DNA of 64,000 nt from Spiroplasma turonicum (GTDB lineage: Bacteria; Bacillota_I; Bacilli_A; Mycoplasmatales; Mycoplasmataceae). The stretch covers positions 1,178,001 through 1,242,000 of the forward strand of contig NZ_CP012328.1 of NCBI RefSeq assembly GCF_001262715.1, given 5' to 3'. Positions 27,635 through 34,142 of the stretch are shown here, piece by piece. A program made the position numbers and the translations under genes. Each line of letters begins with the position of its first letter. Within the stretch, counting starts at the first letter, position 1. The notes beneath the pieces were generated by a model, which was not told where the DNA came from, did no database searches, and saw only the letters and a program-made list of their open reading frames with translations.

Positions 27635-30600
27635 TTAATGATTTCTTTTTTTGTTGTACTCATATTTTTTAAGCAATACGTTGTGTTCTCTTTTAGAGTT
27701 TTTTGATACTTCCATTTCTTTATATAATAAATCTAACTTATTCATTATAATATCTAACTCTTGTTTATAGTCATTTGATTTTTTTTCTTGATTTAAATTA
27801 TTTAATGCTTTTTCAATACTACTTATTCTTGATTCAATAGAATCAATTTTCTTTAATGTTTTATTACTTTCATTAATAACATTGTTATCATCTATTTCTA
27901 AATCAAGAATATTTTTAAGATCTGCTTCTAAAGCAATGTTTTGTGCATCTTTTTTTAAATCTAATATTACATTGTCATCATTGTATTCAATCACACTATC
28001 GTTACTATGATTAAATTTATTTTCTTTGTTAAGTTTGAAAAGTTTAAAATCATCAAACAATTCATTAATATTTGATTCATTGTCATTTGTAGTGCTTGAT
28101 AAATTATTTATACTTTCATCAATTGCACGAGCCATTTTTTCTTTAATGAATTGTTCACCAAGTGCATTTGTACTTGGTGCAGAAGAATCAATTCTAGTTT
28201 CAGGTCTTTTAAAAACATTTTGATTTGTTATTTCTAAATCATTAAAAATGTTTGGAGTTGAAATTGTTTGATCAATTCTTGTTTCAGGTCTTTTAAAAGT
28301 TGTTGGCTCTGGCTTTTGTATAAGTTTTTCTTCTTGATTATATTTATCATATGCATTAGAAGTTTTAATTTTGAAATTATCAAACAATTCATTAATATTT
28401 GATTCATTGTCTTTTGTAGTGCTTGATAAATTATTTATACTTTCATCAATTGCACGAGCCATTTTTTCTTTAATAAATTGTTCACCAAGTGCATTTGTAC
28501 TTGGTGCAGAAGAATCAATTCTTGTTTCAGGTCTTTTAAAAACATTTTGATTTGTTATTTCTAAATCATTAAAAATGTTTGGAGTTGAAATTGTTTGATC
28601 AATTCTTGTTTCAGGTCTTTTAAAAGTTGTTGGTTCTGGCTTTTGTATAAGTTTTTCTTCTTGATTATATTTATCATATGCATTAGAACCATATACTTCA
28701 TAATCTTTAAAGATATTATTTAATTCTGTTTCTTTTTCATCTCTTGATTCAATTAAAACATCTAAATCCATATTAATCGCACGAGCCATTTTTTCTTTAA
28801 TGAATTGTTCACCAAGTGCATTTGTACTTGGTGCAGAAGAATCAATTCTTGTTTCAGGTCTTTTAAAAACATTTTGATTTGTTATTTCTAAATCATTAAA
28901 AATGTTTGGAGTTGAAATTGTTTGATCAATTCTTGTTTCAGGTCTTTTAAAAGTTGTTGGCTCTGGCTTTTGTATAAGTTTTTCTTCTTGGTTATATTTA
29001 TCATATGCATTAGAATCATATACTTCATAATCTTTAAAGATATTATTTAATTCTGTTTCTTTTTCATCTCTTGATTCAATTAAAACATCTAAATCCATAT
29101 TAATTGCACGAGCCATTTTTTCTTTAATGAATTGTTCACCAAGTGCATTTGTACTTGGTGCAGAAGAATCAATTCTAGTTTCAGGTCTTTTAAAAACATT
29201 TTGATTTGTTATTTCTAAATCATTAAAAATGTTTGGAGTTGAAATTGTTTGATCAATTCTTGTTTCAGGTCTTTTAAAAGTTGTTGGCTCTGGCTTTTGT
29301 ATAAGTTTTTCTTCTTGGTTATATTTATCATATGCATTAGAATCATATACTTCATAATCTTTAAAGATATTATTTAATTCAGTTTCTTTTTCATCTCTTG
29401 ATTCAATTAAAACATCTAAATCCATATTAATTGCACGAGTCATTTTTTCTTTAATGAATTGTTCACCAAGTGCATTTGTACTTGGTGCAGAAGAATCAAT
29501 TCTTGTTTCAGGTCTTTTAAAAACATTTTCATCAACAGGTCTTAAATAATTATTAGAGTCTTCATTTTGTTCGCTAACTAATGTATCTAAAATACCATGT
29601 TGGTCATAACTTGAAGTACTTAAAATATCGTTTTTATGAAGTTTATCTTCTGTTAATTTTAAATCAGATAAATCCATATTTATAGCTCTAGATAATTTTT
29701 CTTTTAAAAACTCTTCACCAAGACTGTTTTGATTACCATACCCATATTCAGGGTATGCACTTTCAAAATCGTCCATTTCTTCTGTAGTAAAAGTCTCAAT
29801 ATTTAAATTTTCTTTAGCTTGCTCATTATTAAAGTTATCATCTTTGTAATCATCCTCCAAAGTTGTTTCAACTTCAATGTCTTCAATTAATTCAAATATA
29901 GAGTTTTCGTCATTTATTGTTGAACTCATCATACTATCTTGATAAATATATTCAACAAAAAAACTGTTAGGTATTTCAAGTTGTGATGCTAAATCATTAA
30001 TTTTTTTTGCTTTATAATTGAAACTATTAATTAATTTATCAATTACATTTTGTTTAGTATTTTCTTTAGAAGAGATTATCTGATTTCGAAGTTCTATTAA
30101 AGAGTTTCTTTGTTTTTTTCATCTTTGATGTTTTTTTCTATATTTAATATCCAATTTGTGTTCATCACTTGGCAACGCATCTTTATCAATGTTTTTTATC
30201 AGACCATTTCTGTTTTTTTCTTGGTTTGATTCTATTTTTTTTAAAGTCACGTTGCCATTTTGCTTTCCCTCTTTAGCAACCTCTCTTTCAAACTTTTTCT
30301 CTTCTCGATTGATTGATATCAAGTTTCTTTCTTCTGCATAGTTGTTCAAAGCATCATTATCAAATAAAACAAACTCTAATATTACAAGTCCAAATACTAA
30401 TGATCCAGCAACTATTAATAAAATAGTTTGACTAATTAACATAAAAGCTACTACTAAAAGCAATAAATAAGCTTTTACAAATGGTTTTGATATCTTTTGT
30501 TTTTTTCTTAATCTAGATAGTTCAATGCTAGCAACTATTATTAATGTTAATGCTATAAAAATTAATACTCCAAGCATTATAAATGCTCCTAATTCTTTAT

Positions 30601-32761
30601 TAGCCATATTTGTAGCATTAACTAAAAAACTACTATCATTACCTGCAACACTTGAATAAGGGTGTCCAGACAATAAATTATAAATCTTCATTAAAATTGC
30701 AACTTTTGCAATCATTGTCAAAAGCAACGACAATGTTAAATAAGCAATTAATACAACTGATGAAGTTATAACTATTGATCAAGCACTTATTATTAAAAAT
30801 GCAAACATACTTACCTCCTTTTTATTTAAATTCTCTCAATTACTACCTTGGATAGTAAAGAGATTATTTCCTTCTTGTTCTTGTTTTTTCGAATATAAGT
30901 TTTCACTTATACTTATTTGTTGGTTACCAACTTCCATGCTTCGATCAAATAAATTATAATTTTTATCATTATTTTTACTTATTGATGAGTCGGCCAATAT
31001 TTCTGTTCTGAAGATTGGTCCTTCAGTTTTTTGTTTTGATTCCCATTCTTCTTTTTTATTAATTTTATCAAGTTCAATTTGTTGTTTTTCTAATACTCTA
31101 CCAACATCAATTCTCATCTTACTATTTAGAATGCTAGATACTTTGTTTGATGCATCTGAATTAGCACTTAACAATGATGTTTTGTTGTTAAAGCTGTTAG
31201 GTGGCTCATTTTGATTTGGAAAATTAAATGAGTTTAAATTAGTATTTTGGTTACCCATAAAACTTGGTTGTTGAGTTACCAAACTTTGATTGGGTAGACT
31301 TATATCTTTATTTAAATTGAGTTCGGTTGCGTTTGTAGTGGAGCTACTTGGGGGTAGACTTGATAAAGTGTTTATAACAGATTTTAAAGAGGAGTCATTA
31401 TCTAAAAAGTCATTGTTTAGTCTTGTAAAATTTAATACTTCTTCATTAACTTCTTTAAAACTTTTTTCTTGGCTTAAAACATTATTGTCCAATTTTTTAT
31501 TTAGATTATTTTTTTCAACCATTTTTATAATTATATCTACATATTCAAAAATATATTCTTTTGAAAATTCTTTATAAAAATCAGAGTCAGTCATAAAGGT
31601 TAGATTTAGGTTAGGTATTTTTACAACTATCTTATTAAAAAACTCAATAAATGATTTTTTAAGATTTATATCTATTGGTATGAAGTTATCAACAAATACT
31701 GAAATTCTATTTGTAAAATTATATGATTCAAATAAATTTTTAAACTCAGAAACAATTAAATCTACTGGATCATCAACCACAAAGACCTCATCCATAATAT
31801 CTTCAAAATCATCAACTAATTCAATTTGTCCTCAACTAGTACCTTTTAACATTAAATCAACTCGTTCTCATAATTCTCTTCTATCTTCAAGATCTATTTG
31901 AATAGGTAATTTAGATATTAATTGTTTTAAAAAGAATCTGTACGGTCTTCTGTACTTTGATATCTCAGAAACATCAATGAAGATACTATATAAATTAGAT
32001 ATATTTGTTTTTATATATTTTAAAACTCTTCTATTATTTTTTTTATCAACAGGGATCATTAATAATTTATTATCAAGATTTTCATTATTAAAATACTCTT
32101 TATATTCATCTAATTTTAAGAACGTGCAGTCTTCTTCGATTTCATTTAAATAATTATCTTTAGTTGAATGTTCAAAACTTGTATAAATAGGTTCTTTTAT
32201 TGATTCTTTTATATCTTCAATAGGTAATATACTTTCATTAATAGTTGATAGAGGACTTTTTAAATTTTTAAAAATATCATTTTCTACTACTAAATCTTTT
32301 TCATTATTAATACTAATATTGTTATTTATATTGTATGTTTCTTTAAATTTAGAAGTAGTATCTTTGTTATCTAAGCTATTATTTTGAAAATTATTAGCAT
32401 CTTTTATTTCATCATTAACTAATTGATTCTCAAAAGGAAAATTATAACTATTATTCATGATTTGCTGTGTATTAGTAGATTGCAAATCATTGAATTTGTT
32501 ATATGAGTTTGAATTAGAATCAGATCATGATGGTTGTTGACTTGAATAATTATCACTCAAACCTGGGAAAGGTGGAACAGAAACCTTGTTATTATCATCT
32601 AACATTGTTTTGATGAAAGAAGGTATTACATCTTTGTTATCTACAAAACCCATCTGAGCTCCTAAACGTATATATTTTTCTTTTTCTTTTTGTTTTTCTG
32701 CTTCTTTTTTTACTTCATCTTCTTTTTGTTTTTTCATTCTTTCAAATGGATTAATATACAT
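27635..32761 (-). CDS. 1708-residue repeat-containing membrane protein (single open frame, possible internal start at 30808)
   Basis: The frame is open in code 4 from ATG 32761 to TAA 27635. Residues 1-90 are highly charged (start MYINPFERMKKQKEDEVKKE). Residues about 90-215 are an Asn/Ser-rich linker. Residues about 217-430 look like an alpha/beta domain (IFIDVSEI, ISVFVDNF, LTFMTDSD). Another disordered stretch follows to about 650. Residues 652-800 hold about four membrane segments. Then come a charged region, the 109-residue tandem repeats (residues 1079-1573) and a C-terminal coiled coil (ESRISSIEKALNNL). The 5' end has AAGGAGGTG and a TATAAT promoter. A second ideal site (AAGGAGG-TAAGT-ATG) precedes Met652 in the same frame, so a separate 1057-residue product is possible. 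Alternatively these are two ancestral genes now fused. No family recognised; function unknown. Confidence 0.8.
28043..29527 (-). repeat. 327-bp (109-codon) near-identical tandem repeats, 4 full copies plus one partial
   Basis: Copies run 29527-29201, 29200-28874, 28873-28547, 28546-28220 and a partial one, 28219-28043. The spacing of identical words such as GCATTTGTACTTGG is exactly 327 bases throughout. Each unit encodes FKRPETRID twice (NVFKRPETRIDSSAPSTNAL and TTFKRPETRIDQTISTPNIF), plus LGEQFIKEKM. Copies 1-3 share one middle module (INMDLDVLIESRDEKETELN). Copies 4-5 carry a different one (IDESINNLSSTTKDNESNIN). The flanks are nearly identical, synonymous sites included. Confidence 0.95.
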
Positions 32762-32787
32762 AGAAACACCTCCTTATTACATTGATA

Positions 32788-32793
32788 ATTATA
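32788..32793 (-). promoter_or_regulatory. Predicted extended -10 promoter of the large repeat-protein gene
   Basis: ATGGTATAAT on the minus strand, with the hexamer 26 bases before the start codon. It matches the lipoprotein promoter at 17693. No convincing -35 is present. Confidence 0.6.
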
Positions 32794-32849
32794 CCATAAA
32801 ATTAATAAAAAAGTTATAAATCTATTGTAATTGTTAATCTACTTTGCTA

Positions 32850-34142
32850 TTATATATTGTCAATTTTGGTTGAAACAAAACTTATTTTGTAGTTTTTTAT
32901 AAGTTTTGTACCAATAATTACATAAGATGTTATAAATAAACTAAAAGTTATTATTGCATGAGAAACATACTTAATTCCATATAAAAAGAAATCTTTTATT
33001 GTTCCATCAGAGTTTATGAATGAACTTCCAAGTTTCTTATAAAGATACTCATTTGTGTTTATGAAATGACTTAAATTGTTTTCATTTCAATAATTATAAA
33101 TTTCATTTAGTTTGTGCATTGAATATGTATTTACACTAATCAAAAATATAACCTCGATAAATAAAATAATAAATTGAGTTATTAAAAATTTATAATTAAT
33201 TTCTTCTTTTTTAAAATAAATAACACCTAATACACAAATAGTTGCTATCATAAATCCAGAAGTTATGATAGGTAAGTTTTTAATTGCAAACTGAGAATAG
33301 TTTTGAGATAGATCACTTTTATTGATTAGTTCTAGTCCGCTAAATGTTCAGTTTAACATTGAGTTTAAAGAGTTATTATGTATAGAAATTGTTATTACAT
33401 AAATAAAATGAGGTATGAAAACAGCTAGGGCAGATAAAATTATTCAAAGTGAGATGTTTTTTTTACTATTTAAAGATAAACTGCTTAATATTGTTGAAAA
33501 TTTTTCTTGACCAAAAACTTTTTTAATATGGCTAGTATTAAGTTTTTTCTTTTCTAATGAATTACTAAAGAAAGAAAAGTATATTATTGTTATCGTTACC
33601 TTAACTAAACAAAGTCACCATGTCATTGTATCAGTTGCTCAACCATATATAGTCTTTTCATTATAATTATTCTTTAATTTTTCTATAACATTTTCTAAAA
33701 CAGGGTTTGCATTATCTATATTTGAATTTGAAACATAACTATACATTTGAAAAAATTTTGAGTAGTTGTATTCACTTACTGATGTTATTAAAAAACTCAT
33801 TATAATTAATGAACCTAAACCAACTATAACTGTATGTTTCATTTTATTCAGCTTAGTTTTATTCAATAATTTATCTAAGAATAAAATAAAAATAATTGAA
33901 ATAATATAAATTGAAGTACCAAATCAAGCACTTATCATGATTAAGTTATAAGTTGGTAAAGAGAGATTAATAAAGTAATTTTGAAGAGTTTCATAATTAT
34001 TTTTATAAATATCAAATGAGTTATTTAAATACAAAATAATTATAAATAGTACTTGTGGAATTACTAATAAAGTAAAAACAAATGCCATTTTTAAAATGGA
34101 GCTTCTTTTTACTTTATTACTTGTATCGAATGTATTTATCAT
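32850..34142 (-). CDS. Polytopic membrane protein (430 aa), unknown function
   Basis: A protein with about eight membrane segments, the first at residues about 18-42 (AFVFTLLVIPQVLFIIILYL), separated by short polar loops and one longer Asn/Ser-rich loop after the third segment. Several Trp are TGA. The ATG at 34142 lies one base beyond the prmC stop, so it is co-transcribed with prmC and prfA. The reading ends VSTKIDNI at TAA 32852-32850. I do not recognise the family; a transporter or membrane enzyme is possible, but no diagnostic motif is visible. Confidence 0.75.

Follow-up and report, generated by a model that had tools for sequence, protein, structure and literature searches.

In Spiroplasma turonicum, two adjacent genes, here called N (upstream) and C (downstream), form one reading frame. 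The pair has very probably (probability about 0.85) been fused by loss of the stop codon of N, while the start signals of C have stayed intact.

The fused frame and its junction

The frame lies at positions 27635-32761 on the minus strand of the window, the whole 64,000-nucleotide stretch of contig NZ_CP012328.1 that was analysed. Read with genetic code 4 (table 4), it is a single frame of 1708 codons, uninterrupted by TAA or TAG, as the original prediction had stated. The features of the region are as follows:

32762..32796 (-): start signals of N, an extended -10-like sequence TGGTATAAT and AAGGAGG 7 bases before the ATG at 32761 (read by eye)
30809..32761 (-): ancestral gene N, 651 codons, with conserved MYINPFERMKK at the N terminus, conserved GSNWENLNK near the C terminus and an AAA+/ORC-like domain in the centre (searches and alignment)
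31487..32128 (-): N core, a predicted AAA+/STAND-like alpha/beta fold without the Walker A loop (AlphaFold2, VIA-align, alignment)
30818..30820 (-): codon AAG (Lys648), the site of the TAG stop of N in the sister genome G038 (junction comparison and tree)
30814..30820 (-): Shine-Dalgarno sequence (SD) AAGGAGG of ancestral gene C (sequence, junctions of relatives, survey of GGAGG...ATG sites)
27635..30808 (-): ancestral gene C, 1057 codons and a stop, with the start ATG at 30808-30806 (open reading frame and junctions of relatives)
30194..30808 (-): conserved membrane domain of C, with predicted helices at residues 2-32, 73-101, 109-125 and 128-204 (alignment and prediction)
28121..29529 (-): repeat region in the tail of C, where a unit of 327 bp (109 aa) occurs in 4.3 tandem copies with 95% matches (repeat detection)

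The junction reads AAT TTA AAT AAA AAG GAG GTA AGT ATG, and the residues across it are WENLNKKEVSMFAFLI. The SD AAGGAGG is separated by a spacer of 5 nt from the in-frame ATG of Met652 (30808-30806), and the ideal SD that had been claimed five bases ahead of this methionine is thus confirmed. The TGA at 30838-30836, described earlier as the only one near the junction, was placed correctly: it encodes W642 and is the nearest TGA upstream. It is not the sole one, as a second TGA, encoding W661, lies at 30781-30779, 9 codons past Met652.

A survey of 283 kb of S. turonicum found 45 GGAGG-N3..9-ATG sites, 36 of which start open reading frames (ORFs) of at least 60 codons. The N-C junction was the only one of the 45 with at least 60 open in-frame codons on both sides. 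Since GGAGG...ATG marks gene starts in this species, the lone in-frame exception needs explaining. The RNA at the junction did not fold more strongly than shuffled sequences (z 0.35), and no structure occluding the SD was found there that was stronger than in the shuffles.

Two separate genes in the relatives

Protein searches over 60 genomes of the family detected C, the downstream half, in 39 genomes and N, the upstream half, in 25, and the DNA around the N-C pair was retrieved for 31 relatives from five genera of the family. In all 31, N and C are neighbours on one strand with the stop of N before C, and the long fused frame was absent from every one of them. The junction comparison with related spiroplasmas that the original prediction had proposed thus found a stop throughout, and together with the junction of G038 described below it supports the option, listed there among others, that two genes had lost the stop between them.

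The two genes share a frame in 16 of the 31 relatives, and there only stop codons divide them. Among the 19 same-genus relatives, the gap from the stop to the ATG ranges from 2 to 21 nt; the stop overlaps the SD as TAGGAGG in ten of these, and an eleventh has TAGGGGG. The relatives vary in the frame relation of N and C and in the position of the stop, and an SD ahead of C was found in nearly all. The internal SD of S. turonicum is the ordinary start signal of gene C, since the same combination of SD and ATG opens a separate gene in every relative. Recoding of TAG in the relatives was also considered and found unsupported, as frames and gaps differ by species and read-through often would not join N to C.

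In the tree built from the core of N and the membrane domain of C, S. turonicum is sister to G038 (92/87), with G032 joining next (100/100). Both of these genomes are unfused; S. turonicum thus nests within an unfused clade, and the fused state is derived. At the junction, G038 reads ...AATAAATAGGAGGTATATATG and S. turonicum ...AATAAAAAGGAGGTAAGTATG, a direct match of TAG to AAG with no indels. Also the longer alignment, AATTTAAATAAATAGGAGGTATATATG in G038 and AATTTAAATAAAAAGGAGGTAAGTATG in S. turonicum, is of equal length and includes the TAG to AAG difference. Because the TAG of G038 sits exactly at the AAG of S. turonicum, one T-to-A change at 30820 would suffice for the fusion and is most simply the route to it, judging from the aligned junctions. 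A formal alternative is that the A5 run has gained an A: dropping one A from the run gives AGG AGG TAA GT ATG, which is the arrangement of G032.

When other fused pairs were surveyed against G038 and G032, N-C was the sole pair in which two long genes were clearly fused, and most of the further candidates were fragments of antisense ORFs. The fused state was read from one S. turonicum genome.

Probable products of the fused frame and competing explanations

The ancestral state would have been an adjacent N-C pair, mostly split by only a stop and a few bases in the Spiroplasma genera that carry it. The unfused relatives resemble translationally coupled gene pairs (PMC6728339, PMC10666635) in that the stop and the SD overlap or lie close, with short gaps. 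Classic coupled pairs overlap stop and start (ATGA/TGATG), whereas in the relatives of S. turonicum the overlap is between stop and SD, and in S. turonicum itself the stop is gone. From the stop-SD overlap and the small distances, C in the relatives would seem to be translated by way of its own SD, perhaps aided by ribosomes finishing N.

The fusion would have arisen when TAGGAGG, in which the stop of N is joined to the SD of C, changed from TAG to AAG. Ribosomes initiated at Met1 would then read on into C and produce a 1708-aa protein, in which a cytosolic AAA+-fold domain lacking the P-loop would be joined to the four-helix membrane domain of C and its repeat-rich tail. Ribosomes that bind directly at AAGGAGG would start at Met652 and produce the ancestral 1057-aa protein; direct initiation should still yield this form, because the SD has been preserved and the RNA around it shows no unusual folding. 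Free N would no longer be encoded and could be obtained only through cleavage, and C would have lost any stop-and-restart coupling to N. In the sequence as recorded, the fusion of the frames, its derived state and the intactness of the SD and the ATG are demonstrated, and the products are most likely the 1708-aa fusion and an internally started 1057-aa protein.

An internal translation product is known from a mollicute: P28 (HMW2-s) of Mycoplasma pneumoniae, from within HMW2 (PMC4669176). The earlier remark that in-frame internal starts are rarely recorded in mollicutes was therefore overstated. In both cases a gene of a mollicute has an in-frame internal product that corresponds to its C-terminal part, in N-C one predicted from the sequence. 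Unlike in HMW2, the internal start of N-C would be the former start codon of a separate gene, and its short form would be a whole membrane protein. N-C has an SD and an in-frame start inside a longer ORF, and the arrangement is conserved in none of the 31 relatives.

It is rather unlikely that only the 1708-aa protein is made and that the internal SD and ATG are a silent relic, masked by elongating ribosomes. The two signals now lie within a translated frame, and terminating ribosomes can no longer bring about coupled initiation, but the SD and its spacing are perfect, the RNA shows no more folding than the shuffles, and the HMW2/P28 case shows that an in-frame internal start works in a mollicute.

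An error of sequencing or assembly would mean that the chromosome retains a stop between N and C, with TAG misread as AAG or A5 written for a true A4. A single base parts the fused from the unfused state by either route, and the sequence CP012328 of strain Tab4c (1,261,374 bases) was produced by PacBio only (PMC4653801). When Lo et al. resequenced Tab4c by Illumina at 288-fold coverage, just 12 SNPs and one 1-bp indel were found in 1.26 Mb, and the genome became 1,261,375 bases (PMC5034139). The T-to-A site could be among the 12 SNPs, but the chance of a SNP error at this codon is about 1e-5, when the fact that the site was chosen for its oddness is ignored. The reported indel added a base, whereas correcting an over-called A at the junction would shorten the genome, so the two are not the same. 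Neither of the two genome notes (PMC4653801, PMC5034139) discusses the N-C junction. When 181 ORFs of G038 were compared with 283 kb of S. turonicum (59,799 aligned residues), no true frameshift was found; the one apparent frameshift was a tRNA gene. The ORF comparison and the published resequencing together make the base-call error, which the original prediction had left as an alternative, very improbable. The G+C content was 24.8% in the part examined versus 24.2% published, and no CRISPR array was found in the 303 kb examined.

A conserved dual-start gene, in which selection would keep a nested long and short membrane protein as a regulatory design, has the perfect in-frame SD and ATG, unique in 283 kb, in its favour, but can scarcely be upheld for the genus when all 31 relatives have the stop and none the long form, the frame relation and stop position vary among them, and the SD is accounted for as the ordinary start of C. 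The in-frame stop in relatives, which the original prediction had itself named as a sign of recent fusion or of a base-call error, indicates a recent fusion instead.

The N and C proteins and their module

Searches with N and C against Pfam, NCBIfam and PADLOC found no convincing match for either. In the class-wide search, matches outside the family were weak and partial (E 4e-6 to 7e-4), and by these searches the N-C module appears to be spread over several Spiroplasma genera, with no convincing occurrence in the rest of the class. Scans of public GTDB contigs gave no or few named loci, perhaps because TGA is read there as a stop. Between prmC and the N-C pair, a 430-aa protein (32850-34142) is conserved in G038 and G032 with about 62% identity; it had no match in Pfam or NCBIfam.

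The N core is predicted to have an AAA+-type alpha/beta fold (AlphaFold2 pLDDT 87.6). The closest folds to the predicted model in VIA-align were RdrA (Z 12.3) and ORC5 (Z 11.6), which are tied; identities were 10-15%. The predicted fold is thus shared, at Z 11-12, with ORC/Cdc6-type AAA+ proteins and with RdrA of RADAR. Unlike these, the N core is without the Walker A loop, and the shared fold shows no function. None of the 32 N sequences has a Walker A motif (GxxxxGK[ST]) following the first strand, which makes ATP hydrolysis by the N core doubtful; the GKT present in 14 rows of the alignment sits after a helix near residue 90. The N core and its homologues are a candidate pseudo-ATPase family, for which no Pfam entry was found.

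With the exception of the genus g9, the N proteins begin with MYxNPFERM(K/R)K. Those of g9 (L082, L083, L084) are without the N-terminal MYxNPFERM and end in NPFERKK or NPFKNKK, as if a short motif had shifted from the N to the C terminus. The motif W..(L/I/M/F) occurs within the final 14 residues of N in 21 of 21 relatives of g1, g4 and g6, and across L061-L091 there is, directly ahead of the N stop, a W..L motif (g1, g4, g6) or a DYWAMRGG-type end (g8). This conserved motif directly before the stop suggests that the free C terminus of N may bind a partner. In S. turonicum GSNWENLNK is kept but has become internal, with KEVS-M after it.

The membrane domain of C carries the motif LFDxEALNNYAEERNLIxIYxEExxFExEVxKEGK, and its fourth helix (128-204) continues into a long helix. 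Comparison of the domain with PDB structures gave no match at E below 0.001, and a sequence search with it gave no convincing match. The N terminus of C is predicted to be cytoplasmic, as suggested by RLRKKQKISKP, a basic loop that connects helices 2 and 3, and fusion to a cytosolic domain would thus be topologically possible. Several relatives seem to carry related repeats in the tail of C, while g4 and g9 are almost tailless (C about 200-210 aa).

Stop-loss fusions of neighbouring genes are a known kind of event. Like Rosetta-stone fusions of this kind, N-C consists of adjacent genes that are separate in relatives and form one frame in one genome, a likeness suggesting that the two products act together. 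Unlike them, N-C keeps the SD and ATG of C, so that a nested short product is possible, and it is very recent, involving one base. Subunits of complexes are over-represented among gene pairs that overlap or lie very close together (PMC10666635). We infer that the N and C proteins are partners. A further reading, in which the fusion is real and functional, with 1708-aa and 1057-aa forms from one frame and with N and C parts of one Spiroplasma-specific membrane complex, is tentative and falls somewhat short of even odds.

The N-C frame is a tidy but ordinary gene fusion in an uncharacterised Spiroplasma membrane module. Its junction cleanly captures a gene fusion that turns on one base and leaves the second gene with its start signal, so that what becomes of an internal start once the stop is gone can be tested directly. 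The fusion also points to a two-gene membrane module whose parts probably act together. If the fusion is functional, a membrane-anchored form would replace the free P-loop-less AAA+-fold protein, and N and C would make up one complex.
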